Positions 35,922-61,940 of a stretch of 64,000 nt of DNA are shown piece after piece. The notes under the pieces are model-generated. The model did no database searches. It had not been told where the DNA came from and saw only the letters and a list, made by a program, of their open reading frames with translations. The stretch is taken from the NCBI GenBank assembly GCA_020621965.1, contig JAHRYV010000005.1:1-64000 (forward strand), in the 5' to 3' direction. The position numbers and the translations under genes were made by a program. Positions within the stretch are counted from its first letter, which is position 1. Each line of letters opens with the position of its first letter. The DNA is from Curvibacter sp. GTDB taxonomy: Bacteria > Pseudomonadota > Gammaproteobacteria > Burkholderiales > Burkholderiaceae_C.

Positions 35922-36910
35922 CAGGCCGCTCCCGCCGCGCGGCTCACGTCCAGCCAGGCCGACCAGACCGCCTCGACGCCAGGCGCCGGCTGCGCGTAGA
36001 CGCTGCGCTGGCGCCGGCGCTCCACGGGACCGGTGCGCCAGGCGGTGTCGAAGTTGTAGAGCTGCACATGCGGCAGGTCCAGCGCCACCGCGATGTGGCT
36101 CAGGCCGCTGTCCACACCGATGACACCGGCGCAGCCACCCAGGGCATCGGTCAGCGCATCGAGCGCCAGCCGCGGCCAGACCACGGCATGGGCCATCTCG
36201 CGCGCCAGGGCCTCGCTGCGCCGCTGCTCGTCATCAGTGCCGTGCAGCAGGGCGACGTCGAAACCGGCCGCGTCCAGCCGGCGCGCCAGTTCCAGCCAAT
36301 GCGTGGCCGGCCACTGCTTGTCGGCGCGTGAACTGCCGTGCACCAGGGCCACGCAAGGCCGGGCCGACGACGCGGCTTTGGCCGGGGCCGTGACGGCACG
36401 CAGTCCGAAGACCTCCTCGGTCGGCAACTCGTAGCCCAGGGCCTGCGCGCACAGCAGGCGCGAACGGTGCACCGCGTGCACGTGCGGCTCGATGCGCACG
36501 GCCACGTCGGCCACCCAGCGCGTCGGCGCTTCATAACCCGAACCCTCGGTCCGGTTGGCCAGGGCATAACGCTGGCCGCCGGGCGCCAGCCGCGCCAGCC
36601 AGGCCACCAGGGCCGATTTGGTAAGGCCCTGCAGGTCGATGACCGCGTCGTAGGCCTCGGCCTGCAGTTCGGTCTTGAAGGCCTTCCATTCGGCACGCGT
36701 GGTCGCGGCCAAGGGCGCCTTGCGCCAGCGCCGCAGCTCACAGGGAATGACACGGCGCACGCCCGCGCAGCGCTGCACCAGCGGCGCAAAACCCTTCTCC
36801 ACCACCCAGTCGATCTGCGCCTGCGGCAGGGCGCGGCGGATGTCCTGCACCGCCGGCATGGCGTGCACCACGTCGCCCAGCGAGGACAGCTTGACGATCA
36901 GTATTTTCAA
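35921..36910 (-). CDS. waaC: Lipopolysaccharide heptosyltransferase I
   Basis: A 329-residue GT9 enzyme that adds the first heptose to Kdo2-lipid A. It begins LKILIVKLSSLGDVVHAMPAVQDI, the classic start, and shows YDAVIDLQGLTKSAL, VALVHGSSRADKQWP, GVIGVDSGLSHIAVALDLPHVQLYN. The start is taken as TTG 36910, with GGAGA nine bases upstream; an ATG at 36970 would overlap the manB-like gene and add 20 residues that do not fit the family. It lies 31 bases after the phosphomannomutase gene. Confidence 0.9.
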   Translation of the reverse strand: MKILIVKLSSLGDVVHAMPAVQDIRRALPQAQIDWVVEKGFAPLVQRCAGVRRVIPCELRRWRKAPLAATTRAEWKAFKTELQAEAYDAVIDLQGLTKSALVAWLARLAPGGQRYALANRTEGSGYEAPTRWVADVAVRIEPHVHAVHRSRLLCAQALGYELPTEEVFGLRAVTAPAKAASSARPCVALVHGSSRADKQWPATHWLELARRLDAAGFDVALLHGTDDEQRRSEALAREMAHAVVWPRLALDALTDALGGCAGVIGVDSGLSHIAVALDLPHVQLYNFDTAWRTGPVERRRQRSVYAQPAPGVEAVWSAWLDVSRAAGAA

Positions 36911-36941
36911 ACCTGGGTCTCCAAGGGACGCCGGGGCGCGT

Positions 36942-38324
36942 TCAATGGGCGGCTTCGGCGAAGGACGCATCCGGCTTGACGCTGCGCAGCAGGGCCAGCA
37001 TCTCGCCCTCGATGCGCTGCAGCGCTGCGGCGGTGTGGCCTTCGAAACGCAGCACCAGCACCGGCGTGGTGTTGGAGGCGCGGATCAGGCCGAAGCCGTC
37101 GGGCCAGTCCACCCGCACGCCGTCGATGGTGTTGAGCTGGGCCGGCGCCGCGAACGCGGCCTTGGCCACCAGTTGTTCCACCAGCTGGTGCGGCTCGCCC
37201 TCGGCGCACTTCACGTTGAGCTCCGGCGTCGAATGGCTGGTCGGCAGGGCGTTGAGCACGGCGCTGGCATCCTTCGAACGGCTCAGGATCTCCAGCAGGC
37301 GGCAGGCGGCGTAGGTGCCGTCGTCGAAGCCGAACCAACGCTCCTTGAAGAAGATATGGCCGCTCATCTCGCCGCCCAGCGGCGAGTTGATCTCTTTCAT
37401 CTTGGCCTTGATCAGCGAGTGGCCGGTCTTGAACATCAGCGGCTGGCCGCCGGCGGCTTTGATGGCCGGCGCCAGGCGCTGCGAACATTTGACGTCGAAC
37501 ACGATGGTGCCGCCGGGCACACGCGACAGCACGTCCTGGGCGAACAGCATCATCTGGCGGTCAGGATAGATATTGCTGCCGTCCTTGGTGACGATGCCCA
37601 GACGGTCGCCGTCGCCGTCGAAGGCCAGGCCAAGTTCGGCGTCGCCGCTTCGCAGGGCGGCGATCACGTCACGCAGGTTCTCGGGCTTGCTCGGGTCCGG
37701 ATGGTGATTGGGGAAGGTGCCGTCGACCGCGCTGTGCAGCTCGGTCACCTCGCAGCCGATGGCACGCAGGATGGCCGGGGCCGAGGCGCCGGCCACGCCG
37801 TTGCCGGAGTCGACCACGATCTTCAGCGGCCGCGCCAGCTTGATGTCGCTCACGATGCGGTCGCGGTACGGCGCATAGACATTGAGGTTGCGCACGGAGC
37901 CACCGGCCTGCAACGTCCACGACTCCGCTTCCATGGTGCGGCGCAGGCCCTGGATCTCCTCGCCATAGATGGCGCGGCCGGCCAGCACCATCTTGAAGCC
38001 GTTGTAGTCGGCCGGGTTGTGGCTGCCGGTGACCTGGATGCCGCTGCTGCACACGGTGCTGGCGGCGAAGTAGAGCATGGGCGTGGTGACCATGCCGACG
38101 TCAATGACCTCGATGCCCGTGGCCACCAGGCCGCGGATCAGCGCCGCGCTCAGGGCCGGGCCGCTCAAGCGGCCATCGCGCCCCACCGCCACCCGCGTTT
38201 CGCCGGCCTGGCGCGCGGCGCTGCCGAAGGCACGGCCCAAGGCCTCGGCCACGGCCTCGTTCAGGGTGGACGGCACGATGCCGCGGATGTCATAGGCCTT
38301 GAAAATCGAAGCAGATACTTGCAT
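36942..38324 (-). CDS. manB: Phosphomannomutase/phosphoglucomutase
   Basis: A 460-residue hexose-phosphate mutase that interconverts 6- and 1-phosphates of mannose or glucose for LPS and polysaccharide precursors. Four motifs are present: catalytic phosphoserine loop TGSHNPADYNGFKM, metal loop AFDGDGDRLGIV, sugar loop GGEMSGHIFF, and phosphate loop RASNTTPVLVLRFE. ATG 38324 (MQVSASIFKAYDIRG) fits AlgC-type enzymes. It leads the leftward manB-waaC-waaA unit. A short piece of a related gene occurs at 54.75 kb. Confidence 0.92.
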   Translation of the reverse strand: MQVSASIFKAYDIRGIVPSTLNEAVAEALGRAFGSAARQAGETRVAVGRDGRLSGPALSAALIRGLVATGIEVIDVGMVTTPMLYFAASTVCSSGIQVTGSHNPADYNGFKMVLAGRAIYGEEIQGLRRTMEAESWTLQAGGSVRNLNVYAPYRDRIVSDIKLARPLKIVVDSGNGVAGASAPAILRAIGCEVTELHSAVDGTFPNHHPDPSKPENLRDVIAALRSGDAELGLAFDGDGDRLGIVTKDGSNIYPDRQMMLFAQDVLSRVPGGTIVFDVKCSQRLAPAIKAAGGQPLMFKTGHSLIKAKMKEINSPLGGEMSGHIFFKERWFGFDDGTYAACRLLEILSRSKDASAVLNALPTSHSTPELNVKCAEGEPHQLVEQLVAKAAFAAPAQLNTIDGVRVDWPDGFGLIRASNTTPVLVLRFEGHTAAALQRIEGEMLALLRSVKPDASFAEAAH

Positions 38325-38782
38325 GGGATGGTCTGGCGTCGCAGCCTGGGCGCTTGCACCGGGTCTGCTTGTTCGTACGGAGGGGCCATTGTAGGCGGCA
38401 GGCCAAGCTGCCAGCTTTCGCCCGGGAGCCGAACGCCCTGTCGCCGTGAGCAGATACCGGCCGTCTGACGACATCGCCGCGCAGCACGCCCTCTGTCCGT
38501 GCGACCCCGCACGCGTCCCGCTGCTGGCACCGCGAATGCGGCAGCACCAGTTGGCGTTGCCGCGAATATCCACCTCCACGCAGCAGTTCCTGCACGAACC
38601 GGACTCCCTGCGCACTCACGCAAATCACGCCCTGACCAGAAGCTGACTTTGGCGAACAATTCGCATTACGCGAATTCACGCCACAGTTCATGGCTCGGGA
38701 CACAATTTGATACTCGTCAACCAGCACGGAACGGCTGGGGCAGGCCACTGTTCTCTTAGCATCGGAAGCCTTAAGAGTTGAA
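38325..38782. other. Divergent intergenic region before the cytochrome cluster
   Basis: About 460 bases separate manB (leftward) from the cytochrome cluster (rightward). Short frames here show no coding character, no ribosome sites and no conserved motif. It should contain both promoters. The notable element is an FNR-like site at 38707. Confidence 0.5.
38707..38720 (+). promoter_or_regulatory. FNR/Anr-like site upstream of the cytochrome cluster
   Basis: TTGATACTCGTCAA matches TTGAT-N4-ATCAA at nine of ten positions. Its centre is 69 bases before the first ATG of the cluster. No convincing minus-10 stands at the class II distance, so only the site, not the promoter geometry, is supported. 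Confidence 0.4.
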
Positions 38783-39721
38783 ATGGAATTCGCCGGCAAT
38801 CTGCAGGCGAGACCGGCTTCGATGAGCGCCATACAAAATACAACAGCGACAAACTTGACCTCGGACAAATCGGCTCAGGCCCGCAGCCTGCTGGCCGCAG
38901 ACACCATCGTCTATCTGGTGCTGGCGGCACTGGTCTGGTTGACCTGGAAGATCAGCAGACTCGGGCTGTTCGAGGCCGGCGACGACCTAGGCTACTGGCT
39001 CGGTGTGATCGGCGGCAGCATGATGCTGATCCTGTTCAGTTACCCGCTGCGCAAACACTTCCGGTTTGCTCAGAACTGGGGCCGGGTCAAATGGTGGTTC
39101 CTGGTGCACATGGTGCTGGGCATCGGCGGCCCGCTGCTGATCCTGCTGCATTCGACCTTCCGTATCGGCTCGCTCAACGCCGGCGTGGCGCTGTACAGCA
39201 TGGTCATCGTCGCCCTGAGCGGCGTGGTCGGTCGCTTCATCTATGCCCGCGTGCACCGTGGCCTGCGCGGCGAGCAGACCGGCTTCAAGGAACTGCAGAC
39301 CCGCGCCAAGTTCGACCAGGACGAAGTGCGTTCGCGCCTGGCCTTCGCACCCCAGGTCGAAGCCGACCTCAAGGCCTTCGAGCAGGATGAGTTGCAGGCC
39401 GCGCCCGGCTGGCTGACCTACTTTCGCCAGGTGTTCTGGCTACCGATCAAGCAGTGGATCATCTACCGGCGCTGCGTGCGCGACCTCCACCCGCAGATCC
39501 GCAAGCTGGCCCAGCACGGCAAGTGGTCACACCAGGATCTGGTGCGCCGCGAGGCCATGTCCCGCAAGCTGATCCGCCGCTACCTCACCGCCGTGGTCCG
39601 GGTTTCCCAGTACACCGCCTACGAGCGCCTGTTCTCGCTCTGGCACGTGGCGCACATCCCCTTCGTGTACCTGCTGATCATCAGTGCCGTGGTGCACGTG
39701 ATCGCGGTCCACGCCTACTGA
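38783..39721 (+). CDS. Multi-spanning membrane protein with paired histidines, putative diheme b-type cytochrome
   Basis: 312 residues with about five hydrophobic segments: near residues 40-60 and 70-90, 105-125, 130-155 and 280-310. Two pairs of His are spaced 14 apart in membrane helices: HMVLGIGGPLLILLH and HIPFVYLLIISAVVH, the spacing used to hold b hemes in cytochrome b561 and ferric-reductase-like proteins. A long soluble, charged loop (about 155-270) separates them. It heads the multiheme cluster, 20 bases before the first c-type cytochrome, so a role in passing electrons between quinones and the periplasm is reasonable. Heme binding is inferred. ATG 38783 has AAGAG upstream; ATG 38822 is an alternative. 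Confidence 0.7.
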   Translation: MEFAGNLQARPASMSAIQNTTATNLTSDKSAQARSLLAADTIVYLVLAALVWLTWKISRLGLFEAGDDLGYWLGVIGGSMMLILFSYPLRKHFRFAQNWGRVKWWFLVHMVLGIGGPLLILLHSTFRIGSLNAGVALYSMVIVALSGVVGRFIYARVHRGLRGEQTGFKELQTRAKFDQDEVRSRLAFAPQVEADLKAFEQDELQAAPGWLTYFRQVFWLPIKQWIIYRRCVRDLHPQIRKLAQHGKWSHQDLVRREAMSRKLIRRYLTAVVRVSQYTAYERLFSLWHVAHIPFVYLLIISAVVHVIAVHAY

Positions 39722-39741
39722 GCCGCCTGGGGCCACCTGCC

Positions 39742-41622
39742 ATGCGCGCGCTCGGTTTCTTCAAATACCCGGTCGCGTATTGGCGCCTCCTGGCCTGCAC
39801 CGGCTTGCTGGCGCTGCTGTGCGGCCCGGCCCTGGCGCAGACCATCGAGTCGGTGATTGCCCCGGGCAAGGTCATCGAGGGCCATGCCAAGTACGAGGAC
39901 GAGTGCAAGCAATGCCACGTGCGTTTCGACCGCAAGGCGCAGGACGGCCTGTGCATGGACTGCCACAAGGACGTCGGCACCGATGTGCGCGCCAAGGGTG
40001 GCTACCACGGCCGGCTGAAGGCCCAGGCCTGCCGCAGCTGCCACACCGACCACAAGGGCCGCGAGGCACGCATTGCCGAGTTCGACAAGAAGAAGTTCGA
40101 CCACGCCCAGACCGACTTCGCCCTGCGCGGCAAGCACCAGGAGACGGAATGCGACAAGTGCCATCTCAGCGGCAAGAAATACCGCGAGGCGGCGCAGGCC
40201 TGCAACGACTGCCACAAGAAGGACGACGTGCACAAAGGCTCGCTCGGTCCGAAGTGCGCCGATTGCCACGGCGAGAAGGACTGGAAGGAGGCGCGCTTCG
40301 ACCACGACAAGACCCGCTTCGCGCTGAAGGACAAGCACGTCGACGTGAAGTGCGTCGACTGCCACCAGGACAACCAGTTCAAGGACACCCCGCTGGCCTG
40401 CGTAGCCTGCCACAAGAAGGACGACGACGGCAAGAAGGGCCACAAGGGCCAGTTCGGCGAGAAGTGCGAGAGCTGCCACAACGCCAAGTCATGGAAGGAA
40501 AACACCTTCAACCATGACACCGACACCAAATACCTGCTGCGCGGCAAACACATCAAGACCACCTGCGCCAGCTGCCATACCGGCCATCTCTACAAGGTCA
40601 AACTGAGCCAGGACTGCTACAGCTGCCACAAGAAGGACGACAAACACAAGGAAAGCCTGGGCAAGAACTGCGGCAGCTGCCACACCGAGCGCGACTGGAA
40701 GGAACGGGCCAAGTTCGACCACGACAAGACCGACTTCCCGCTGCTGGGCAAACACGCCAAGGCCGAGTGCAAGGACTGCCACAAAAACGTCATGTTCAAG
40801 GAAGCGCCCAAGGACTGCTACAGCTGCCACAAGAAGGACGACAAGCACGAGCGCACTCTGGGCGAAAAGTGCGCCGATTGCCACACGGAAAAGGACTGGA
40901 AGAACACGAGCGGGCGCTTCGACCACGACAAGACCGACTTCCAGCTGCGCAACGCGCACGCGGACAAGAAGGTCAAGTGCAGCGCCTGCCACAAGGACCT
41001 GCGCAGTTTCCGCAAGACACCGCTGGACTGCTACAGCTGCCACAAGAAGGACGACAAACACGAGGGCCAGGAGGGCACGAAGTGCCAGGCCTGCCACGGC
41101 GACCGTTCCTGGAAAGACACGCGTTTCGACCACGGCCAGTCCCGTTTCCCGCTGACGGGCAAACACATCGTCGTGTCGTGCAAGAAATGCCATGAGACCC
41201 CCCGCTACAAGGACGCGCCGCGCGACTGCTACAGCTGCCACAAGAAGGAAGACAAGCACAAGCTGAAGTTCGGCGTGCGCTGCGAGAACTGCCACAACAC
41301 ACGCGCGTGGGGGCTGTGGAACTACGACCACAACGCGCGCACCAGCTACAAGCTTGACGGCGCGCACCGCAAGGTGGCTTGCGAGAGCTGCCACAAGGAG
41401 CCGGCACCGCGCGGCAAGGACGCCGCCTTGCTGGGCAGCAGCTGCATCGGCTGCCACCGCACGGAGGACGTGCATGACGGGCAGTTCGGCGCGCGCTGCG
41501 AGCAGTGCCACAGCACCGACAGCTGGAAGAACTTCAGAAACCGCATCGGGAGTCTGGGCCAGGGCTCCCGCAATGCTGCCCTCGTCAGCCAGGCCGGGAC
41601 CACAAGAGGACGTGAAGAATGA
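39742..41622 (+). CDS. 24-heme periplasmic-type c cytochrome
   Basis: A 626-residue exported protein. The signal peptide (LLACTGLLALLCGPALAQ) is followed by 24 CXXCH motifs, from CKQCH near residue 55 to CEQCH near 592. The protein is very Lys/Asp/His-rich. Much of it is built from repeats of about 66-71 residues with three hemes each, seen as FDHDKTDF, GKH and CYSCHKKDDKHE recurring at 40615, 40816, 41029 and 41227. Free histidines at matching places could give bis-His ligation. It resembles cytochrome c3/c7-type repeat proteins and probably forms a long periplasmic or through-pore wire. Its stop overlaps the start of the next cytochrome (ATGA). Confidence 0.92.
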   Translation: MRALGFFKYPVAYWRLLACTGLLALLCGPALAQTIESVIAPGKVIEGHAKYEDECKQCHVRFDRKAQDGLCMDCHKDVGTDVRAKGGYHGRLKAQACRSCHTDHKGREARIAEFDKKKFDHAQTDFALRGKHQETECDKCHLSGKKYREAAQACNDCHKKDDVHKGSLGPKCADCHGEKDWKEARFDHDKTRFALKDKHVDVKCVDCHQDNQFKDTPLACVACHKKDDDGKKGHKGQFGEKCESCHNAKSWKENTFNHDTDTKYLLRGKHIKTTCASCHTGHLYKVKLSQDCYSCHKKDDKHKESLGKNCGSCHTERDWKERAKFDHDKTDFPLLGKHAKAECKDCHKNVMFKEAPKDCYSCHKKDDKHERTLGEKCADCHTEKDWKNTSGRFDHDKTDFQLRNAHADKKVKCSACHKDLRSFRKTPLDCYSCHKKDDKHEGQEGTKCQACHGDRSWKDTRFDHGQSRFPLTGKHIVVSCKKCHETPRYKDAPRDCYSCHKKEDKHKLKFGVRCENCHNTRAWGLWNYDHNARTSYKLDGAHRKVACESCHKEPAPRGKDAALLGSSCIGCHRTEDVHDGQFGARCEQCHSTDSWKNFRNRIGSLGQGSRNAALVSQAGTTRGREE

Positions 41623-43769
41623 ACAACAACCGAGACAATCTCCGCCGCCCCCTGCGTCAGTTCGCGGCCATGCTGCTGGGCCTCGTGCTCTGGCTCGCCA
41701 GCACCCCGCTGCTGGCCCAGAGCCCGATCCGCAATTTCGACCACACCAAGACCGGCTTTCAACTCAGCGGAGTGCACTCGTCGCAGCGCTGCGAGTCCTG
41801 TCACCTCAACGGTGTCTTCAAAGGCACCCCGCGCGACTGCGCCAGCTGCCACGCCCCCGGCGCCCGCCTGGCCGGCCAGAACGTGGTCAAGCCGCCGCAG
41901 CACCTCCCGACCCAGCTGAGCTGCGACTCCTGCCACAGCACCGTGACCTTCAGCGGTGCCAAGTTCAATCACATGGGCGTGGCGCCGACGGCCTGCACGC
42001 GCTGTCACAACGGCGTGACGGCCCCGGGCAAGTCTGCCGGGCACATCGCCACCGCGGGCAATTGCGGCGACTGCCACCGCACCACGGCCTGGCTGCCCGC
42101 AGCCAAGCCTGACCACAGCGCGTACACCGCGGCGACCAACTGCGCCAGCTGCCACAACGGCACCAATGCGATCAGCAAGCCGGCCAACCATATGCCGACC
42201 ACGCTGAACTGCATCGCCTGCCACTCCCCCATGGGCGCCACCTTCACACCCCACAGCTGGAACCACACGCAGCAGCCGGTGACCGCGCAGTGCGCCACCT
42301 GCCACACCGGCAGCTACCTCAGCGGCCGGGGCAAACCCGCCAACCACATCCCCTACCAGGTCTTGAGCGGCGTGGCCATCGCCAACTGCGACAGCTGCCA
42401 CAAGGCCGGCTTCAGTACGTGGTTCCCCGGCACCTTTCACGCCAACGTGTCGATCAGCACGCAGTGCGCCACCTGCCACCTCAGCGGCGTCTACGGGGTG
42501 ACGAGCAAACCCGCCACCCCGATCCACGCCACGGTCACCGGCAACTGCGAGAACTGCCACAAGACCACCAGTGCCTGGACCGCCGCGCGGCCCGACCACA
42601 GCCTGTACACGGCCGCCACCAACTGCGCCAGCTGCCACAACAACGTGGCCGCCACGGGCAAGCCGGCCAACCACATGCCGACGACGCTGAACTGCATCGC
42701 CTGCCACTCCCCCATGGGCGCCTTGTTCACCCCCAACAGCTGGAACCACACGCAGCAGCCGGTGACCGCCCAATGCGCCACCTGCCACACCGGCAGTTAC
42801 CTCAGCGGCATGGGCAAACCCGCCAACCACATCCCGTACCAGCTGGTCACCGCCTCGGCCAGCGCCAACTGCGACAGCTGCCACAAGGCCGGCTTCAGCA
42901 CCTGGTTCCCCGGGCGCTTCCACGCCAATGTGTCGACGTCGACGCAGTGCGCCACCTGCCACCTCAGCGGCGTCTACGGGCTGACGAGCAAACCCGCCAC
43001 CGCCATCCACGCCACCGTCACCGGCAATTGCGAGAACTGCCACAAGACCACCAGCGCCTGGACCGCGGCCAAGCCCGACCACAGCCTGTTCACGGTCGCC
43101 ACCAACTGCAGCAGCTGCCACAACAACGTGGCCGCCACCGGCAAGCCGGTCAACCACATGCCGACCACGCTGAACTGCATCGCCTGCCACTCCCCGACGG
43201 GAGCCTTGTTCACCCCCAACAGCTGGAACCACACGCAGCAGCCGGTGACCGCGCAGTGCGCCACCTGCCACACCGGCGGTTACCTCAGCGGCATGGGCAA
43301 GCCCGCCAATCACATCCCCTATCAGGCGATCGGCGTCTCGGCCGCTGCCAACTGCGACAGCTGCCACAAGTCCGGCTTCTCGACCTGGTTCCCGGGCCGC
43401 TTCCACGCCAACTTCACCGTGACGGGGCAGTGCTCCACCTGCCACGGCAGCGCGGTCTACGGCCTGACCACCAAGCCGGCCAACCACATCCCGGTGATCG
43501 CCCTGCTCAACGGCTCCACGCTGGAGTGCAATGCCTGTCACACCAGCACCATCACCTGGACGGCGCAGACCATGAACCACAACAACAGCATGGGCAACGG
43601 CGCCGGCTGGTGCAAGAGCTGCCACGACACCAGCACCAGCTATCTCGGCAACATGATGAAGATGGCGCTGAACCACCGCGGCGGAACCACCATCAAGACC
43701 GACTGCTCGCAGTCCAGCTGCCACCGCCCGCTGGGGACCTTTGGCGCGCCCTACTCGAAATGGAACTAG
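41619..43769 (+). CDS. 24-heme (plus one CX4CH) c cytochrome with tandem hexaheme repeats
   Basis: A 716-residue exported protein. The signal peptide ends LASTPLLAQ; then 24 CXXCH motifs and one CSQSSCH (CX4CH) near the C-terminus. Unlike its neighbour it is Thr/Asn/Gly/Ala-rich and nearly uncharged, as expected for a surface-exposed or extracellular cytochrome. The centre is three tandem units of exactly 161 residues, each with six hemes (CENCH or CGDCH, CASCH, CIACH, CATCH, CDSCH, CATCH) and shared blocks NHMPTTLNCIACHSP, SWNHTQQPVTAQCATCH and GFSTWFPG. It is translationally coupled to the preceding cytochrome. Probably the terminal electron exchanger of the conduit; location is inference. 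Confidence 0.92.
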   Translation: MNNNRDNLRRPLRQFAAMLLGLVLWLASTPLLAQSPIRNFDHTKTGFQLSGVHSSQRCESCHLNGVFKGTPRDCASCHAPGARLAGQNVVKPPQHLPTQLSCDSCHSTVTFSGAKFNHMGVAPTACTRCHNGVTAPGKSAGHIATAGNCGDCHRTTAWLPAAKPDHSAYTAATNCASCHNGTNAISKPANHMPTTLNCIACHSPMGATFTPHSWNHTQQPVTAQCATCHTGSYLSGRGKPANHIPYQVLSGVAIANCDSCHKAGFSTWFPGTFHANVSISTQCATCHLSGVYGVTSKPATPIHATVTGNCENCHKTTSAWTAARPDHSLYTAATNCASCHNNVAATGKPANHMPTTLNCIACHSPMGALFTPNSWNHTQQPVTAQCATCHTGSYLSGMGKPANHIPYQLVTASASANCDSCHKAGFSTWFPGRFHANVSTSTQCATCHLSGVYGLTSKPATAIHATVTGNCENCHKTTSAWTAAKPDHSLFTVATNCSSCHNNVAATGKPVNHMPTTLNCIACHSPTGALFTPNSWNHTQQPVTAQCATCHTGGYLSGMGKPANHIPYQAIGVSAAANCDSCHKSGFSTWFPGRFHANFTVTGQCSTCHGSAVYGLTTKPANHIPVIALLNGSTLECNACHTSTITWTAQTMNHNNSMGNGAGWCKSCHDTSTSYLGNMMKMALNHRGGTTIKTDCSQSSCHRPLGTFGAPYSKWN
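42063..43511 (+). repeat. Three tandem 483-bp repeats inside the second cytochrome gene
   Basis: Equivalent heme codons start at 42063, 42546 and 43029, exactly 483 bases apart. Units 2 and 3 are very alike at the DNA level and unit 1 slightly less so. Each encodes 161 residues and six CXXCH motifs. A fourth, incomplete unit appears to follow (CNACH, CKSCH). Direct repeats this long can recombine and change copy number. Confidence 0.9.
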
Positions 43770-43801
43770 TCACCCCGGGCTGAGCACGCCCTGTCCCTCC
43801 A

Positions 43802-43837
43802 CGTGGCCGGCCGGCCCGCAAGCGCAGGCCGGCCACG
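43802..43837 (+). other. Perfect inverted repeat between cytochrome and porin genes
   Basis: CGTGGCCGGCC (43802-43812) and GGCCGGCCACG (43827-43837) form an 11-bp stem with a 14-base loop, 33 bases after the cytochrome stop and 12 before the porin ATG. No T-run follows. It could slow transcription, stabilise the upstream mRNA or mask the weak ribosome site of the porin gene. Confidence 0.7.
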
Positions 43838-43849
43838 ATCTTGCGCACC

Positions 43850-46549
43850 ATGACGAGAAGAATCCTTTCCTGGACCCTTGCGGCCGTCTGCCTACAGGCC
43901 GGCCTGCTGTCCACTGCCCGGGCCCAGCTGCTCGAAGAAATCGAACTGCGGCGCGAGGGCAACCACGCCGTCGTGCAGGTGCGCTTCGTCACGCCGGTGC
44001 AGATCCAGCGCACGCTGTCCACCCAGAACGGCCGGCTGCTGCAGATCTTCTACAGCGTGCTGCCGACCACGGAACGCCTGAACCAGATCACCAGCGAACG
44101 CCGCCTCAACGATCTGCCGGGCCTGCCCGCCCTGCGCATCACCGACGAAGACGCGCTGAGCGACGGCGTCAACCGCAAGCTGGTGCTGCACTTTGGCGAG
44201 ACGACACGCTACCGCGTGCGCCCCGGCCGCGACCAGCGCGGCCTGGAGATCGTGCTCGATGGCCGCGGCGCCGCCATCAGCGCGCTCACACCGGCGCCGC
44301 TGGCGGCCGTGCCGGCCATCAGCGCGGGCGGTTACGCCATCGTGCTGCAGAGCTCGAACAGTCCGGGCCAGCCCCTGGCCGCCGCCGTCCCGATGGAACT
44401 GCAGGACAAGGCGGTCTACACCTCGCAGCGTGTGGTCAACGGCAAGACCCTGTACGAAATCGACCTCGGCAACTTCCCCACCCTGCCGGCCGCCGAGAGC
44501 GCGCGTGCGCGTCTGCTGCGCCGCTTCCCGGGCGCCACCATCATCGCCCTGACCCCGCCCGCACCTGCACCTGCACCTGCACCTGCACCTGCACCTGCAC
44601 CTGCACCCGCGCCCGCAGCGGCAACAATGCCGGTACCGCCCATGCCAGTGCTGCCGGCGCTGCCGCTGCCGGTTCCCGCAGTGACGGCTGCCGAAACGAC
44701 GGCCCCTGCGGCGCAGGCGGCTGCGCCGGCCACGCCCTTGCCACCAGCGGCGCCGGAGCCCGTGTCCGCGCTACCCGCACCGGTGGTCGAACCCCCGATC
44801 GTTGCGCTGCCGGTCACGCCCCTGCCCATCGTCCCGACGCCCAGCGAAGCCGTCGAAGTCGCCACCCCCAGCCCGCAGGCCGCGGCCGAGTACAACGCCA
44901 AGGCTGCCTTGCTGCTGGCCGGTGCCGAGCTGGCTTATGAGCAGGGCGATCACCGCACGGCCATCGAAACGCTCAACACCTTGCTGAACCTGCCGACCAA
45001 CAGCTCCTCGCGCAAGGCGCAGCAACTCATCGGCTCCGCCCGCCTGCGCGGCGGCGACCCCAAGGGTGCGCGCCGCGAGTTCGAACTCTTCCTGCAGCTC
45101 TACCCCTCCGGCCGCGACAGCGACCAGGTCCGCCAGCAACTCGCCCGTCTGCCGGCGCCCGAGCCGGCAGCGCGCCCGCGCCGGCCCATGGAGCCGATCT
45201 CCGCCACCAACGGCTCTGTCTCACTCTTCTACTACGGCGGCCAGTCCCAGGTGCGCACACTGGACTTCCAGAACTCGCCGATCAGCGGCCTGCCCGTGCT
45301 GCAGTCGGACAACACACTCTCCGGCACCGACCTGCGGCAGCTGCAGTCCACGGTCGACCTCAACTGGCGCCACCGCGACAGCGACAACGACATGCGTTTT
45401 GTCTTTCGCGACACCGCCAGCGCCAACCTGCTGCCCAACGGCAGCAACCGCAACCGCCTGACCGCGCTCTACTTCGACCAGCGCTCCTTCGTCAACGGCA
45501 CCAGTTTGCGCGTCGGCCGCCAGTCTCCCACCGGCGGCGGCGTGCTCTACCGCTTCGACGGCGTGCAGGCCGGCTACACCTTCGCGCCCAAGTGGCGCGT
45601 CAACGGCGTGGCGGGCAAACCCTCGGACGACCTGCTCGACACCCAGCGCCGCTTTGCCGGCCTGTCCATCGAGGCCGAGGCGCTGACACACGAGCTCAGC
45701 GGCAATCTCTACGTGATCCAGCAGACCATCGACGGCGAGGCCGACCGCCAGGCCTACGGCACCGAACTGCGCTACTTCAGCGGCGGCCTGTCCATGTTCG
45801 GCCAGGTGGATTACGACCAGGTGTTCCAGCGCGTCAACATCGCCGGCCTGCAGGGCACCATGCTTTACGAGGACAACAGCGTGCTGAACTTCCTGATCGA
45901 CCGGCGCACCACCCCGCTGCTGTCCCTGGGCAATGCCCTGTTCTTCCAGGACCCGGCGGCGCCGACGATCGCGCGCACCATCCGCGAGCTGCTGCTGACC
46001 ACGCCGCTGGACACGCTGGTGACGCGGGTCAAGGGCATTACACCGTTCCAGAACCAGGCCATGCTGGGCTACACCACGCCCATCAGCAAAAACTGGCAGA
46101 CCGGCGCCAACCTCAACTACACCAGCGTCGACGAAATCCCGCCCGTCGACGTGATCCTGCCGCAGGGCCAGCCGGCCACGGGCAACCTGTGGGGGCTGGG
46201 CCTGCAGCTGATCGGCTCCAACCTCTATTCGGGCCGCGACACACACGTCTTCAACCTGACCTTCCTCAGCGGCCCCACCTACAATGGGCAGCTGCTGTCC
46301 TACAACAACCTGACCGGCCTGAACGAGCAGTGGCAGCTCGAACCCTCGCTGCGCTACTACACCCAGGTCGACAGCACCGACACGCGCATGGTGCGTTGGA
46401 CACCGGGCATGCGCGTGACCTACCGCATCCGCAAGCACATCTCGCTGGAGACCGAGCTCCAGTACGAGATCTCCGAATCCAGGGGCCCGCTGCGCGAGGA
46501 ATCGTCCAAGCGGATCTTCTATTACTTCGGAGGGCGCTACGATTTCTGA
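43850..46549 (+). CDS. Outer-membrane beta-barrel with SPOR-like and TPR domains, putative porin of the cytochrome conduit
   Basis: 899 residues. A signal peptide (ending STARAQ) is followed by a beta-rich domain and an SPOR-like part (YAIVLQSSN ... YEIDLGNFPTLPAAESARARLLRRFP, about 163-232). A Pro/Ala linker (233-343) contains a PA repeat, then TPR-like helices (about 345-435: ALLLAGAELAYEQGDHRTAIETL). A barrel of about 450 residues with alternating strands ends in IFYYFGGRYDF, with the terminal Phe used for outer-membrane insertion. It carries no heme motif. The position after two 24-heme cytochromes suggests the sheath that lets a cytochrome cross the outer membrane. ATG 43850 lacks a good ribosome site; TTG 43841 is possible. 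Confidence 0.82.
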   Translation: MTRRILSWTLAAVCLQAGLLSTARAQLLEEIELRREGNHAVVQVRFVTPVQIQRTLSTQNGRLLQIFYSVLPTTERLNQITSERRLNDLPGLPALRITDEDALSDGVNRKLVLHFGETTRYRVRPGRDQRGLEIVLDGRGAAISALTPAPLAAVPAISAGGYAIVLQSSNSPGQPLAAAVPMELQDKAVYTSQRVVNGKTLYEIDLGNFPTLPAAESARARLLRRFPGATIIALTPPAPAPAPAPAPAPAPAPAPAAATMPVPPMPVLPALPLPVPAVTAAETTAPAAQAAAPATPLPPAAPEPVSALPAPVVEPPIVALPVTPLPIVPTPSEAVEVATPSPQAAAEYNAKAALLLAGAELAYEQGDHRTAIETLNTLLNLPTNSSSRKAQQLIGSARLRGGDPKGARREFELFLQLYPSGRDSDQVRQQLARLPAPEPAARPRRPMEPISATNGSVSLFYYGGQSQVRTLDFQNSPISGLPVLQSDNTLSGTDLRQLQSTVDLNWRHRDSDNDMRFVFRDTASANLLPNGSNRNRLTALYFDQRSFVNGTSLRVGRQSPTGGGVLYRFDGVQAGYTFAPKWRVNGVAGKPSDDLLDTQRRFAGLSIEAEALTHELSGNLYVIQQTIDGEADRQAYGTELRYFSGGLSMFGQVDYDQVFQRVNIAGLQGTMLYEDNSVLNFLIDRRTTPLLSLGNALFFQDPAAPTIARTIRELLLTTPLDTLVTRVKGITPFQNQAMLGYTTPISKNWQTGANLNYTSVDEIPPVDVILPQGQPATGNLWGLGLQLIGSNLYSGRDTHVFNLTFLSGPTYNGQLLSYNNLTGLNEQWQLEPSLRYYTQVDSTDTRMVRWTPGMRVTYRIRKHISLETELQYEISESRGPLREESSKRIFYYFGGRYDF
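44564..44605 (+). repeat. (CCTGCA)7 microsatellite in the porin linker
   Basis: Seven perfect CCTGCA units encode Pro-Ala repeats, with degenerate CCCGCA/CCCGCG units on either side. Gain or loss of units stays in frame, changing only linker length between the SPOR-like and TPR domains. Confidence 0.9.
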
Positions 46550-46568: not shown

Positions 46569-47168
46569 TTGTCGGCGCGCGGACTGTCGCTGCGCCGCGG
46601 TCGCGAGTGGCTGTTCCGCGGGCTGGATCTCAGCGTCGCCCCCGGCCAGCTGCTGTGGCTGCGCGGGCCCAACGGCTGCGGCAAGACCAGCCTGCTGCGC
46701 GCGCTGGTCGGCCTGACGCTCCCGGATGAGGGCGCGGTGGACCTGCCGGCCTGCGCACCGGTCTACATCGGCCACAGCCCCGCCCTCAAGGACGATCTGC
46801 GGGCGGTCGAGGCGCTGCAGTTCCTGGCCTGCCTGCACGGCCGCGACAGCCGGGCGGCGAGCGTCGCCGCCGCGCTGCAGCGCCTGCAGGTGCAGCACCG
46901 CGGCCAGCGCAGCGTGCGCACCCTGTCGCAGGGCCAGCGCCGCCGCGTCGCGCTGGCGCGCCTGGCGCTGGAAGACACGCCCGCGCTCTGGGTGCTGGAC
47001 GAACCCTTCGACGCGCTGGACCAGGCCGGCATCGCCGTCGTGCTGCAACTGATCCGCGAACAGCTGCAGCGCCAGGGCGCCGTCGTGCTGACCAGCCACC
47101 TGCCCTTCGAGCTGCCGGGCATCGCGGTGCAGACGCTGGACCTGGACACAAGGCCCGCCCATGTCTGA
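46569..47168 (+). CDS. ccmA: Heme exporter ATPase CcmA
   Basis: The ATPase of the CcmABCD complex that drives release of holo-CcmE. Walker A is LRGPNGCGKTSLLRALVG, the signature LSQGQRRRVALARLAL, Walker B ALWVLDEPFDALD, and the switch region VLTSHLPF. Length (about 200 residues) fits. The start is uncertain: TTG 46569 is the first conventional codon. A frame extending back to ATT 46542, eight bases after GGAGGG inside the porin 3' end, would add ISENRTPPL. Either way it follows the porin stop within about 20 bases or overlaps it. It overlaps ccmB by eight bases. Confidence 0.9.
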   Translation: MSARGLSLRRGREWLFRGLDLSVAPGQLLWLRGPNGCGKTSLLRALVGLTLPDEGAVDLPACAPVYIGHSPALKDDLRAVEALQFLACLHGRDSRAASVAAALQRLQVQHRGQRSVRTLSQGQRRRVALARLALEDTPALWVLDEPFDALDQAGIAVVLQLIREQLQRQGAVVLTSHLPFELPGIAVQTLDLDTRPAHV

Positions 47169-47832
47169 CAGCGCTTTCCTGCTCATCGTGCGGCGCGACC
47201 TGCGCCTGGCAGCGCGCCGGCGCATCGAGGTACTGCTGCCGCTGGTCTTCTTCGTCGTCGCCGCCAGCCTCTTTCCGCTGGGTGTCGGCCCCGAGCCGCA
47301 GACCCTGCGCCAGATCGCGCCGGGCATCGTCTGGGTCTGCGCGCTGCTGGCGGCCATGCTCTCGCTGGGCTCGCTGTATGCGAGTGACCACGCCGACGGC
47401 ACGCTCGACCAGCTGCTGCTATCGCGCCGCTCGCTCACGCTGCTGGCCGCCGGCAAGGCCCTGGCCCATTGGCTGCTCAGCGGCCTGCCGCTCATCGTGC
47501 TGGCGCCGCTGCTGGGCCTGCTGTTCGACCTGCCGGGCCGCTCCATCGCCATCCTCGCCCTCGGCCTGTTGCTGGGCACACCCATCCTCAGCCTGCTGGG
47601 CGGCATCGGCGCGGCCCTCACGCTGGGTCTGCGCAACGGCGGCATCCTGCTGCTGCTGCTGGTGCTGCCCTTGTGCGTCCCGGTGCTGATCTTCGGCGCC
47701 GGGGCCGTCGCGGCGGTGGAGGCCGGCCTGTCCGCCCAGGGCCACCTCTCCTTGCTGGGGGCACTGTTGCTGCTGAGCCTGCTCGGCGCGCCACCGGCCG
47801 CCGCCGCGGCGCTCAGAATCTCGGTCCACTGA
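47161..47832 (+). CDS. ccmB: Heme exporter permease CcmB
   Basis: A 223-residue inner-membrane protein with six hydrophobic segments. Family features include FLLIVRRDLRLAARRR at the N-terminus, VWVCALLAAMLSLGSLYASDHADGTLDQLLLSR and the LPLCVPVLIFGAGAV segment. It is the permease partner of CcmA. One base separates its stop from ccmC. Confidence 0.95.
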   Translation: MSDSAFLLIVRRDLRLAARRRIEVLLPLVFFVVAASLFPLGVGPEPQTLRQIAPGIVWVCALLAAMLSLGSLYASDHADGTLDQLLLSRRSLTLLAAGKALAHWLLSGLPLIVLAPLLGLLFDLPGRSIAILALGLLLGTPILSLLGGIGAALTLGLRNGGILLLLLVLPLCVPVLIFGAGAVAAVEAGLSAQGHLSLLGALLLLSLLGAPPAAAAALRISVH

Positions 47833-47833
47833 T

Positions 47834-48592
47834 ATGCACACCTCGCCCCGCTTTTACACCTACGCCGCGCCCTCGCGCTTCTACGCCCTGGCCGGCCGGC
47901 TCGTGCCCTGGCTCTATGCCCTCGCCGCGCTCACGGCCGTGGCGGGGCTGTACGTCGGCTTTTTCGTCGCGCCCACCGATGCCACCCAGGGCCAGGTCTA
48001 CCGCGTCATCTTCATCCACGTCCCTGCCGCCTGGCTGTCCATGCTGCTCTACCTGGTGATGGCCGGCTGGGCCGTGGTGGGCTGGGCCTTCAACGCGCGG
48101 CTGGCGTCCATGGTGGCGCGCGCGCTGGCGCCCACCGGCGCCCTGTTCACCGTCATGGCGCTGTGGACCGGCGCCCTGTGGGGCAAACCGACCTGGGGCA
48201 CCTGGTGGGTGTGGGACGCGCGCCTGACCTCCGAGCTCATCCTGCTTTTCCTCTACCTCGGCTACATCGCGCTGGTGGAATCGATCGACGACGTGCGCCG
48301 CGCCGACCACGCCGGTGCCCTGCTGGCCCTGGTGGGCGCCGTCAACGTGCCCATCATCTATTTCTCGGTGCGCTGGTGGAACACCCTGCACCAGGGCGCC
48401 AGCGTCAGCATGACGGCCGCGCCCAAGATGGCCAGCACCATGCTCACCGCCATGCTGCTGATGACCGTGGCCTGCTGGGCCTACGCCTTCGCCGTGGTCT
48501 TCACCCGCACCCGCGCCATCGTGCTGGAGCGCGAGGCCGATGCCGACTGGGTGCAGGATCTGGCCCGCCAGGCCGACAAGGAGACAGCATGA
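47834..48592 (+). CDS. ccmC: Heme-handling membrane protein CcmC
   Basis: A 252-residue, six-helix inner-membrane protein that loads heme onto CcmE. The tryptophan-rich WWD signature is WGTWWVWDARLTSELILLFLYLG, flanked by periplasmic His in IHVPAAWLS and the later RWWNTLHQG. Length and hydrophobic pattern are typical. Its stop overlaps ccmD (ATGA). Confidence 0.95.
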   Translation: MHTSPRFYTYAAPSRFYALAGRLVPWLYALAALTAVAGLYVGFFVAPTDATQGQVYRVIFIHVPAAWLSMLLYLVMAGWAVVGWAFNARLASMVARALAPTGALFTVMALWTGALWGKPTWGTWWVWDARLTSELILLFLYLGYIALVESIDDVRRADHAGALLALVGAVNVPIIYFSVRWWNTLHQGASVSMTAAPKMASTMLTAMLLMTVACWAYAFAVVFTRTRAIVLEREADADWVQDLARQADKETA

Positions 48593-48756
48593 ACTGGAAC
48601 AGCCTCGATGAATTTCTGGCCATGGGCGGTTATGCGCTCTACGTCTGGGGCTCCTATGCCCTGGTGCTGGGGCTGATGCTGCTCGAGCCCGTGCTGGCCG
48701 AGCACCGCCACCGCCGTGCGCTGGCGCAGGCCCGCGACAACCTGGAGGAATGCTGA
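48589..48756 (+). CDS. ccmD: Heme exporter accessory protein CcmD
   Basis: A 55-residue protein with one membrane helix ([25 protein letters not shown]) followed by a charged tail ([15 protein letters not shown]). This is the classic CcmD form, which helps release holo-CcmE from CcmABC. It is coupled to ccmC by ATGA and followed within a base by ccmE. Confidence 0.9.
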
Positions 48757-48757
48757 G

Positions 48758-49210
48758 ATGAAACCGCGTCACCGCAAGATGGCCATCGCCGCCGGCGTGC
48801 TGCTGGTGCTGGGCGCCGTGGTCGCCTTGGTGCTCAATGCCTTCCAGAGCAATCTGGTCTTTTTCTACTCGCCCACGCAGGTGGCGGCGAACGAGGCCCC
48901 GCAAGGGCGCACCTTCCGCCTGGGCGGCCTGGTCGAGCAAGGCAGCGTCAGGCGCGACGGCCTGGTCGTGAGTTTCGTCGTCACCGACACGGCCAGGTCC
49001 ATCCCCGTGCGTTATGAAGGCATCCTGCCCGACCTGTTCAAGGAGGGCAAGGGCGTGGTGGCCCAGGGCCAGCTGCGCGAGGGCGTCTTCATCGCCCGCG
49101 AGGTGCTGGCCAAACACGACGAGAACTACATGCCGCCCGAGGCGGCGCAAGCCCTGCAGGCGGCCGCCAAAGCGTCCGCCCCCGCAGCGGCCCCGGAGAA
49201 AAAACCATGA
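48758..49210 (+). CDS. ccmE: Heme chaperone CcmE
   Basis: A 150-residue periplasmic OB-fold protein anchored by one N-terminal helix ([19 protein letters not shown]). The covalent heme ligand is the His in [10 protein letters not shown], with the conserved Tyr four residues later. [12 protein letters not shown] and [21 protein letters not shown] are typical. The C-terminal tail is Ala/Pro-rich. Its stop overlaps ccmF (ATGA). Confidence 0.95.
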
Positions 49211-51195
49211 TTCCTGAAATCGGTCACTTCCTGCTCTGGCTCGCGCTGGGCACGTCCCTGGTGCTGGGTGTGCTGCCGCTGGCCGGCGCCGCGCGCGGCC
49301 GCGCCGACTGGATGGCGCTGGCGCGGCCCTTGTCCCTGACGCTGGGCCTGCTGGTGCTGCTGGCCTTCGCCTGCCTGACGGCCTCCTTCATCCGCCACGA
49401 CTTCTCGGTGCTCTACGTCGCCTCCAACTCCAACACAGCCCTGCCCCTGCCTTACCGCATCGCCGGCGTCTGGGGCGGGCACGAAGGCTCGCTGCTGCTG
49501 TGGGTGCTGATGCTGTGCGGCTGGATGGTGGCCGTGGCCGGTTTCAGCCGGCACCTGCCGCAGGCCGTGCAGGCGCGCATCCTCGCCGTCATGGGCCTGG
49601 TGGCGCTGGGTTTCCTGCTGTTCATGCTCACCACCTCGAACCCCTTCGAGCGCCTGTTCCCGGTGCCGGCCGACGGCCGCGACCTCAACCCGCTGCTGCA
49701 GGACCCGGGCATGGTGTTCCACCCGCCGCTGCTCTACATGGGCTACGTCGGTTTCTCGGTGGCCTTCGCTTTTGCCATCGCGGCGTTGATCGGCGGCAAC
49801 CTCGACGCCACCTGGGCGCGCTGGACGCGGCCCTGGACGACGGTGGCCTGGCTCTTCCTCACGCTGGGCATTGCGCTGGGCAGCGCCTGGGCCTATTACG
49901 AGCTGGGCTGGGGCGGCTGGTGGTTCTGGGACCCGGTGGAGAACGCCTCCTTCATGCCCTGGCTGGTCGGCACGGCGCTGATGCACTCGCTGGCCGTGAC
50001 CGAAAAGCGCGGCAGCTTCAAGTCCTGGACCGTGCTGCTGGCCATCCTGGCCTTCTCGCTCTCGCTCTTGGGCACCTTCCTGGTCCGCTCGGGTGTGCTG
50101 TCCTCGGTGCACGCCTTCGCCACCGACCCACGGCGCGGCCTCTTCATCCTGGGCCTGCTGACGGTGGTGATCGGCGCCTCGCTGGCGCTGTATGCCTGGC
50201 GCGCGCCCAAGGTCGGCCTGGGGGCGCGCTTCGCGCTGATCTCGCGCGAGACCGCGCTGCTGGGCAACAACGTGCTGCTGCTGGTGGCCGCCGGCGCCGT
50301 GCTGCTGGGCACGCTCTACCCGCTGCTGCTCGATGCCCTGGGTGCGGGCAAGATCTCGGTCGGCCCGCCCTACTTCGACACGGTCTTCATGCCGCTGATG
50401 ACACCGGTGCTTTTCCTCATGGGCGTGGGCCCGCTGGCGCGCTGGAAACAGGCCGAGGTGCCGGACCTCGCGCGGCGCCTGCGCTGGGCGCTGGGCGCGG
50501 CCGTGGTGGCGGCCCTGCTGAGCGGCTGGCTGGCCGGTGAGATCCACCTGGTGACCAGCTTCGGCCTGCTGCTGGCCTACTGGATCGTGGCCACCGTGGC
50601 GACCGACGTCTGGGAGCGCATCGCGCCGCAGGGCGGCGGCGCCGCGCAGGCCCTGCGCAAGCTGCGCCAGATCCCGCGCGCGCAAGTCGGCATGCTGCTG
50701 GCCCACCTGGGTGTAGCGGCGTTCTGCTTCGGCGTGGCCATGGTCAAAGGCTACGAGGTGGAGCGCGACGTGCGCATGGCCATCGGCGACAGCACCACGC
50801 TGCGCGGCTACACCTTCACGCTGCGCGGCCTGCGTGACGTCAACGGCCCGAACTACTACGCCGTGCAGGGCCTGGTCGAGGTGAAACAGAACGAGCGCCG
50901 GGTCGCCGAGCTGAAGCCGGAAAAACGCGTCTACCGCGTGCAGCAGAACCCCATGACCGAGGCCGCCATCGACGTCGGCCTCACGCGCGACCTGTATGTC
51001 TCGCTCGGCGAGGCGGTGGACGGCAAGGCCTGGATCGTGCGCATCTACGTCAAGCCCTTCATCGACTGGATCTGGGGCGGCTGCCTGCTGATGGCGCTGG
51101 GCGGCGCGCTCGCCGCCAGCGACCGGCGTTACCGCGCCCGCCAGCCGCAGACCCGCCAGGCCGCGAATGCGCAGGCCGAAGGAGTGACGCCATGA
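49207..51195 (+). CDS. ccmF: Cytochrome c heme lyase subunit CcmF
   Basis: A 662-residue membrane protein with more than a dozen helices that attaches heme to CXXCH sites with CcmH/I. Marks are [35 protein letters not shown] and the WWD signature [18 protein letters not shown], then [15 protein letters not shown] and [18 protein letters not shown]. The C-terminal periplasmic part ends after a last helix. The gene is coupled to both neighbours by ATGA overlaps. Confidence 0.96.
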
Positions 51196-52170: not shown

Positions 52171-52187
52171 AATATTCCCGCCCCATC

Positions 52188-55105: not shown

Positions 55106-55278
55106 AATAGGGCTCATGCTGACCTGCATGGAAGGGGATGTATAACCCTGTATCCGGGTGGTCGCTTGGGCACTTACCCTGCGGCCACAGTGGCGGATTT
55201 CGAAATTGGTGCTCTCAGGAGGATCCCTCTTGGTTCGAACCTCAACATTACTCAATATTCTGGAAAGCGAGAAACAAC

Positions 55279-60590: not shown

Positions 60591-61940
<1,350 letters not shown>

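Follow-up and report, generated by a model that had tools for sequence, protein, structure and literature searches.

The analyzed window was a stretch of 64,000 nucleotides (positions 1 to 64,000 of the forward strand of contig JAHRYV010000005.1, Curvibacter sp., GenBank assembly GCA_020621965.1). Four open reading frames (ORFs) of the same direction, located at 38783–46549, encoded a predicted inner-membrane protein (IMP), two multiheme cytochromes (cytochromes 1 and 2), and a barrel protein, and were separated by 20, −4, and 71 bases (80 for the last interval if the barrel ORF starts at ATG 43850). The original prediction, made from this sequence, had described these genes as a candidate for a complete porin–cytochrome electron conduit with 48 or more c hemes, similar to sets of the PCC3 type. 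The four genes and their direction were confirmed, and 49 heme sites (24 + 25) were counted; the word “complete”, however, did not hold, since the locus also comprised a Ccm operon and a flavoprotein that occurred nearly one-to-one with the IMP. The same-strand run extended past the barrel gene through ccmA–I, with a gap of 19 bases before ccmA, and after a further gap of 37 bases behind ccmI it ended at 54669 with the flavoprotein gene. The genes of this run were as follows:

38783–39721, + strand: PCC3 inner-membrane protein (IMP), 312 amino acids (aa); two WX3HX13H motifs and SGXXG; diheme b predicted
39742–41622, + strand: periplasmic-type multiheme cytochrome (cytochrome 1), 626 aa; 24 CXXCH, three-heme repeat, charged
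41619–43769, + strand: extracellular-type multiheme cytochrome (cytochrome 2), 716 aa; 24 CXXCH and one CX4CH, T/S/A/G-rich, few charges
43841 (TTG) or 43850 (ATG)–46549, + strand: outer-membrane-type barrel protein, 902 or 899 aa; N-terminal domain, weak SPOR-like segment, proline/alanine linker, TPR, C-terminal barrel-type region, terminal Phe
46569–47168, + strand: ccmA (TIGR01189 above cut-off)
47161–47832, + strand: ccmB (TIGR01190 above cut-off)
47834–48592, + strand: ccmC (TIGR01191 above cut-off)
48589–48756, + strand: probable ccmD, 55 aa (from position and sequence)
48758–49210, + strand: ccmE (PF03100)
49207–51195, + strand: ccmF, heme lyase (TIGR00353 above cut-off)
51192–51725, + strand: ccmG/dsbE (TIGR00385 above cut-off)
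51718–52170, + strand: ccmH, NrfF-like (TIGR03147 below cut-off)
52167–53339, + strand: ccmI/cycH, TPR and Ig-like (PF23892 and PF23914 above cut-off)
53377–54669, + strand: flavoprotein, proposed fifth PCC3 component, 430 aa; N-terminal hydrophobic stretch, two ferredoxin-type motifs, FAD/NAD(P) oxidoreductase domain (FAD, flavin adenine dinucleotide; NAD(P), nicotinamide adenine dinucleotide (phosphate))

The IMP of the window carried the WX3HX13H motif twice (W105/H109/H123 and W287/H291/H305) and SGXXG at S146–G150 (SGVVG), had a single Cys, and lacked CXXCH; the “His-paired membrane protein” expected earlier thus had both WX3HX13H motifs of the PCC3 IMP. When an alignment of IMPs was used to scan named genomes, 159 stretches were matched, of which 120 were confirmed and 80 were taken (L018–L097; loci and genomes are denoted below by L and G numbers, respectively). 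The hosts included many Burkholderiales (Rhodoferax, Polaromonas, Piscinibacter, Roseateles, and metagenome-assembled genomes), as well as Gallionella, Methylotenera, and others; Polaromonas jejuensis has PCC3 at L051, where the 10-kb flank stopped within ccm genes. Both WX3HX13H motifs and SGXXG were found in all 79 full-length IMPs (84 loci with an IMP match), and residues W105, H109, H123, S146, G147, G150, W287, H291, and H305 were invariant in an alignment of 23 IMPs, the sole recurring Pfam match of which was DUF4405 (11/23, best E 8.7e-4). The paired motifs suggest a diheme-b protein. IMP relatives were also seen in other surroundings: in L043, a 400-aa ORF with 3 CXXCH, followed by the flavoprotein, was found and no giant cytochrome; in L030, no giant cytochrome was found in the short stretch, which ends too early to judge; and in L015 (G057), an IMP-like gene lay beside a 10-heme ORF, with a ccm operon running divergently and no flavoprotein match. 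In L019 (JAPZAO010000098.1, titled Candidatus Methanoperedens), the IMP was 92% identical to that of the window, and the first 3 kb were 87% identical to window positions 39011–42055 with a GC content of ~65%, which then fell to ~40%; given this GC drop and identity break, a chimeric contig or misbinning, with a join in cytochrome 2, is likelier, and the presence of PCC3 in archaeal Methanoperedens was set aside.

Cytochrome 1 contained 24 CXXCH motifs, mostly 16–17, 18, and 32–36 residues apart, which corresponds to a three-heme repeat, and was charged (K + D + E about 29%), as had been predicted. Cytochrome 2, predicted to be an uncharged 24-CXXCH cytochrome, indeed had 24 CXXCH and few acidic residues (D + E about 2%; 40% T/S/A/G), and in addition one CX4CH site at residue 696. 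This C-terminal CX4CH (residues 696–702) was counted also in relatives, including L026, L036, and L051, and possibly represents a special terminal heme. The heme-motif content of the two cytochromes was far beyond chance, and Pfam cytochrome c7/c3 families matched both far above the cut-off. For 24 and 25 heme sites, there were 25 and 26 His residues outside the heme motifs in cytochromes 1 and 2, with 26.1 and 28.6 aa per heme, respectively; this His surplus and the low number of residues per heme fit the expectation for bis-His wires. Cytochrome 1 had no match in the PDB at 1e-5, and an obvious lipobox was not seen in reading either cytochrome sequence.

Among the 80 named loci, cytochrome 1 was complete in 70, with 24 hemes in 56, 21 in 6, and 27 in 6; the two other complete ORFs (9 and 10 hemes) resumed in another frame (9 + 15 and 10 + 12) and looked broken. 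In the remaining 10 loci, the sequence left the contig (four) or no such ORF was found within 900 bases (six, among which L078 and L080 ended at once and L054 had none in 10 kb). The cytochrome 2 ORF was complete in 27 of the 80 loci, with 4 to 53 motifs, and at least six of these looked cut or broken (L019, L045, L046, L055, L076, and L092), whereas in 32 loci it continued past the end of the locus, and as many as 72 motifs were visible, three of these loci (L052, L053, and L058) stopping at the 10-kb flank limit and the rest at contig ends. In view of these run-offs at contig ends, the repeats of cytochrome 2 seem to be where assemblies break PCC3 clusters. Periplasmic PCC3 cytochromes of Gallionellaceae with 21, 24, and 27 hemes are listed in a published table as well (PMC10734462). 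Since cytochrome 1 occurs with 21, 24, or 27 hemes and cytochrome 2 varies widely, the inner wire is quantized and of nearly fixed length, whereas the outer wire is free in length.

The barrel protein contained no CXXCH, and its C-terminal barrel-type region ended in Phe. A phmmer search with it matched 34 ORFs in 29 loci, including those of Gallionella (six ORFs were pieces in L076), and in these loci the relatives adjoined PCC3 genes. The alignment of 22 members comprised an N-terminal domain, a variable middle, TPR, and the C-terminal barrel-type region. In the window protein, the TPR matches were below the Pfam cut-off, as was the weak SPOR match (E 0.018), while at E 0.1 TPR_9 was found in 18 of the 22 relatives and SPOR in 7, so that TPR is a family trait and SPOR an occasional one; both labels of the original prediction were right, but TPR is not an additional feature of this locus. 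The MtrB/PioB family (PF11854) was matched by none of the 22 members (E 0.1), and the barrel profile matched mainly TPR proteins and no barrel in the PDB. The lack of homology to known conduit porins, which was to refute the original prediction, was observed in part: the barrel is related to other PCC3 barrels, which are putative porins, and had no match to MtrB/PioB. A crude alternation score gave 18–32 peaks, depending on the threshold, over a 453-residue region, which lay within about 1–3 standard deviations of shuffles and thus too close to them to be used; published strand predictions for PCC3 barrels reach up to 42.

The PCC3 porin–cytochrome clusters were described by He et al. (2017; PMC5566968) and include Slit_0867–0870 and Slit_1446–1449 of Sideroxydans ES-1; in the latter, the order of IMP, periplasmic cytochrome, extracellular cytochrome, and porin is given in a later table (PMC12016527). 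An IMP of this type is expected to have five transmembrane helices with motifs on helices 3, 4, and 5, and the published medians are 21 periplasmic and 34 extracellular hemes (PMC5566968). The window contained an IMP of ~300 aa with the motifs, a periplasmic-type cytochrome within the 21–27-heme range (24 hemes; of the 70 named loci in which cytochrome 1 was complete, 68 had 21, 24, or 27), a second many-heme cytochrome with small residues and few aa per heme, and a barrel related to PCC3 porins. Thus, the four components, their order, the IMP motifs, the heme numbers (24 and 25), the low-complexity extracellular-type cytochrome, and the barrel relatives all agreed with the PCC3 assignment proposed originally, and membership of the locus in PCC3 is practically certain. 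The locus differs from PCC3 as presented in the published main text, where four components are given, in that here and in relatives a linked, co-occurring flavoprotein is present, and in that a ccm operon lies between the barrel and flavoprotein genes in this window. With MtrCAB/MtoAB/PioAB it shares the general layout of a periplasmic multiheme cytochrome and a barrel in the outer membrane, to which MtrC adds an outer cytochrome, but it has 24–25 hemes instead of 10 and a barrel family without PF11854; against the decaheme MtrA/DmsE family TIGR03508, the two cytochromes scored 20.5 and 100.5, below the 192.2-bit cut-off. Mtr uses CymA where PCC3 has the HX13H IMP. The same His motif occurs in the IMPs of PCC4 and other HX13H-IMP clusters, and PCC4 carries further redox proteins; these clusters differ in the IMP family, in their smaller cytochromes, and in the reductase domains of L016 and L017, which are unlike the flavoprotein. 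A further redox protein in such clusters was noted by He et al. (PMC5566968).

The flavoprotein matched pyridine-nucleotide oxidoreductase domains (PF13738 and PF07992), and the nearest PDB entries to its flavin domain were YpdA/Bdr, thioredoxin reductases, and ferredoxin–NADP reductases. Two ferredoxin-type motifs of the form CX5CX3CP were found, the second being CxxHxxCxxxCP. In a set of 44 sequences (43 loci and the window, near-duplicates possible), the six motif Cys residues and the second motif CxxHxxCxxxCP were present in 44/44, while the position of this His was occupied in the first motif by Ser (38), Ala (4), Gly (1, the window), or Cys (1). A Cys3His iron–sulfur (Fe–S) cluster would be consistent with this conservation, and Fe–S and FAD are the predicted cofactors. 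A hydrophobic start above the threshold and a basic stretch after it were each found in 43/44; by the positive-inside rule, the flavoprotein domains would be placed in the cytoplasm. A thioredoxin-reductase-type CXXC was not seen in reading the flavoprotein sequence.

The distribution of the IMP (E 1e-20), the flavoprotein (E 1e-60), and CcmF (E 1e-60) was assessed in one family sample of 399 genomes. The IMP was found in 32 genomes, the flavoprotein in 33, and both in 31 (Fisher p about 1e-42, relatedness ignored); by genus, the frequencies were 20/141 and 21/141, respectively. In the two flavoprotein-only genomes (G067 and G409), the gene followed ccm genes on short contigs ending within ccm on the PCC3 side. 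Two genomes, G096 and G220, had two IMPs and two flavoprotein matches each, the second match in G220 being partial with an internal stop. In a phylum sample of 334 genomes, the IMP (profile, E 1e-15) and the flavoprotein were found in the same four genomes, namely, that of the window and G139 (both also in the family sample), one from another family of the class, and one from another class.

The two genes were also linked. In 16 of the 31 genomes with both, they lay within 20 kb on one contig, and in two more this held for second copies (18/31). In G202, one contig stopped in cytochrome 2 (L125/L126 pair) and the other started in a cytochrome fragment followed by the barrel gene, ccm, and the flavoprotein, so the cluster was likely split by assembly. 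Among the more distant named loci L079–L097 except L083, the flavoprotein gene was within 5 kb of the IMP in 18/18 loci and divergent with a gap below 0.6 kb in 16; in L018–L078 and L083, it was seen in 15/62, and 36 of the remaining 47 loci held less than 10 kb beyond the IMP. The flavoprotein gene followed the barrel gene in L142 and L160, with no ccm gene matched between them. Pairwise distances of the IMP and the flavoprotein had a correlation of 0.91 over 32 loci including the window.

A distant case was provided by plasmid pEMTOL02 of Emticicia oligotrophica (Bacteroidota), on which an IMP (281 aa, both motifs, profile E 2e-40), a flavoprotein (43% identity, Ser/His motifs), and cytochromes with 23 and 40 CXXCH formed one run together with a CcsA/ResB protein. 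Similarity of the 538-aa protein at the barrel position to the PCC3 barrel was not detectable (E 0.32); judged by these sequences, the inner core and wires were kept, and the barrel and the heme-attachment system were different. L017 contained an IMP-like ORF and a 7-heme cytochrome, and in L016 an IMP-like stretch and an 8-heme cytochrome shared one frame; in both loci these lay beside a membrane-start NAD/FAD/2Fe-2S reductase. Pairing of IMP-type proteins with different NAD(P)H-type flavoproteins supports such a protein as the inner electron partner of the IMP, and the flavoprotein is very probably a working part of PCC3. No paper linking PCC3 with a flavoprotein of this kind or with a ccm operon was found in a search whose coverage ended short of supplementary tables, figures, and most subscription papers; where PCC3 and ferredoxin appear together in the text of PMC10734462, Rnf and other ferredoxins are concerned. 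It should be noted that PCC3 as a plasmid-borne system was also considered and rejected: the IMP had no match among plasmids (tblastn, 1e-10), and the flavoprotein at 1e-50 had a single match, that of Emticicia, where the linked IMP was found by profile.

The System I set ccmA–I with the CcmF heme lyase was present in the window (ccmD by position). In the family sample, CcmF was found in 166/399 genomes, namely, in 31 of the 32 IMP genomes and in 135 of the 367 without IMP (p about 5e-12, relatedness ignored), so that PCC3 is associated with System I in this sample; the single IMP genome without a CcmF match (G337) was 58% complete. Among the 31 genomes with both, the IMP and CcmF were at most 20 kb apart in 9. 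The flavoprotein occurred in only 2 of the 135 CcmF-positive, IMP-negative genomes and therefore follows PCC3 rather than cytochrome maturation. In the genus of the window, CcmF was found at a high score in 5 of 25 sister genomes, and the regions obtained from 20 of these 25 had neither PCC3 nor ccm in the 5–12 kb upstream of pgm, a neighbor of the cluster in the window. The window's own genome also has ResB (System II). Joint arrival of PCC3, ccm, and the flavoprotein would be a likely reading. Autotrophy and an Mtr/Mto system in this genome were considered and set aside, as neither the RuBisCO large subunit nor PF11854 was found, the absence being weakened by its 86% completeness.

The favored reading, which is held to be somewhat better than even, is that the locus encodes a PCC3 trans-envelope conduit with a fifth component and its own System I genes on one same-strand run. 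Cofactors, topology, order of partners, NAD(P) use, direction, and substrate of such a conduit may be envisaged as follows. The membrane-anchored flavoprotein (53377–54669) would exchange electrons with NAD(P)H at FAD and pass them via two unusual Fe–S clusters to the IMP, whose two b hemes would conduct them across the inner membrane as happens in ferric reductases and NADPH oxidases (NOX); the 24-heme cytochrome would bridge the periplasm, the TPR barrel protein would take electrons through the outer membrane, and the 25-heme cytochrome would deliver them to an extracellular acceptor. The path from quinones assumed originally is not borne out; the protein that co-occurs is a flavoprotein of the NAD(P) type, which suggests another electron partner, although a quinone site may also be present. 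NAD(P)H is a strong electron donor. The outward direction is preferred, as electrons from NAD(P)H would run downhill that way, and NAD(P)H-fed outward flow is considered about evenly balanced with its negation. Ferric reductases and NOX also have two HX13H pairs on two helices (He et al., PMC5566968), and a NAD(P)H–FAD partner would be a further likeness; however, no sequence homology was detected, and in the proposed conduit the partner is separate, bears Fe–S motifs, and would pass electrons to a multiheme wire.

A number of observations weigh against this reading. The 23 IMPs matched 18 Pfam families at E 1 without the ferric reductase/NOX domain (PF01794), the IMP profile matched no b-cytochrome and nothing meaningful in the PDB, and the diheme-b prediction is drawn from the motif. 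In the flavoprotein, the nearest NCBIfam model, YpdA, was matched below its cut-off, and NAD(P) binding is suggested by family membership. The association test in the 399 genomes, as said, took no account of relatedness, the phylum sample supplied only two new positives, and there was one IMP-only genome (G381), in which a contig ended inside the IMP. In G246, a 6-contig assembly, the flavoprotein was on a different contig, so linkage is not universal; the IMP relative of L054 was without a giant cytochrome in 10 kb; and Emticicia, with CcsA/ResB instead of Ccm, indicates that Ccm is not required everywhere.

The published PCC3 model, an inward conduit linked to quinones in which electrons of an Fe(II)-type donor would pass from the extracellular cytochrome to the IMP and quinone, with the flavoprotein as a side branch or for redox poise, appears unlikely here, although it is the most serious alternative. 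It is favored by the model and habitat argument of He et al. (PMC5566968) and, as a point against outward flow, by the report that the IMP gene of PCC3 copy 2 in Sideroxydans CL21 was upregulated when iron oxidation was possible (PMC12442390). Meanwhile, the PCC3 clusters of ES-1 showed lower levels with Fe(II) than with thiosulfate, with the authors concluding no apparent involvement under their conditions (PMC8788666), and in a proteome table of ES-1 the extracellular PCC3 cytochrome was 0 in all eight columns, with the other listed PCC3 proteins at the 0–63 percentile (PMC12016527); published expression data on direction are thus mixed. A quinone-only route would also leave the nearly one-to-one NAD(P)-type flavoprotein unexplained, and the absence of the RuBisCO large subunit noted above for the 86% complete genome points the same way.

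The flavoprotein could otherwise be a cytochrome c maturation factor, that is, a reductant for heme attachment, placed in the locus because of the 49-heme load. Its position directly after ccmI in the window, L124, L126, L127, and L131 and the nearness of its FAD/NAD domain to YpdA, thioredoxin reductases, and ferredoxin–NADP reductases would agree with this role. However, it was not found (E 1e-60) in 133 of the 135 CcmF-positive, IMP-negative genomes, it stands beside the IMP or barrel without a ccm match in L142, L160, and most of L079–L097, and it combines the lack of a thioredoxin-reductase-type CXXC with ferredoxin-type motifs kept in 44/44, which makes the role very improbable. Least probable is that both cytochromes stay in the periplasm and that the barrel protein has a different export role (for polysaccharide or a surface protein), with no outer-membrane conduit, as might be suggested by the missing MtrB/PioB match and lipobox, the nearby polysaccharide genes, and the occurrence of TPR plus barrel in exporters, since the barrel gene and those of the two giant cytochromes stay adjacent and in the same order throughout the Pseudomonadota loci, and the free length of cytochrome 2 but not of cytochrome 1 fits one cytochrome inside and one outside.

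Beyond the favored reading of a five-component conduit, it is proposed more tentatively, as something rather short of an even chance, that PCC3 acts as an NAD(P)H oxidase spanning the cell envelope, with a conserved inner core that moves between bacteria and an exchangeable barrel. The core would consist of the flavoprotein (Fe–S with the Cys3His motif, FAD, NAD(P)), the diheme-b IMP, the periplasmic wire of fixed length, and the outer wire of free length, and would often travel with a heme-attachment system of its own, which is System I in the window and in several Pseudomonadota, and CcsA/ResB on the Emticicia plasmid. If so, cells could dump NAD(P)H reducing power outside directly, without quinones. 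Since 2017, PCC3 has figured as a candidate conduit for iron oxidation, and in the PCC3 literature examined, which treats its function as a candidate one, no cytoplasmic electron partner is proposed. The near one-to-one flavoprotein provides a concrete partner candidate and a marker gene for PCC3, and turns the electron source and direction of PCC3 into an ordinary biochemical question. The 21/24/27-heme periplasmic and freely varying outer cytochromes amount to a length rule that can be compared with the width of the periplasm. Frequent assembly breaks at cytochrome 2 may have hidden the genes of the cluster.

In the neighborhood of the cluster, waaC–pgm (34650–38390) adjoins the IMP end in the window and likewise in L026, while in L124 (G178) kdtA–waaC–pgm adjoins the flavoprotein end instead; the waaC–pgm neighborhood is a possible recurrent insertion place for PCC3–ccm clusters. 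Downstream of the flavoprotein gene, a TviB-type UDP-N-acetylglucosamine C-6 dehydrogenase (polysaccharide) was encoded at 55138–56553, in a region where GC falls to 0.59, followed on the − strand by a Fic-domain protein (59211–60413) and a chromate transporter (60594–61940).

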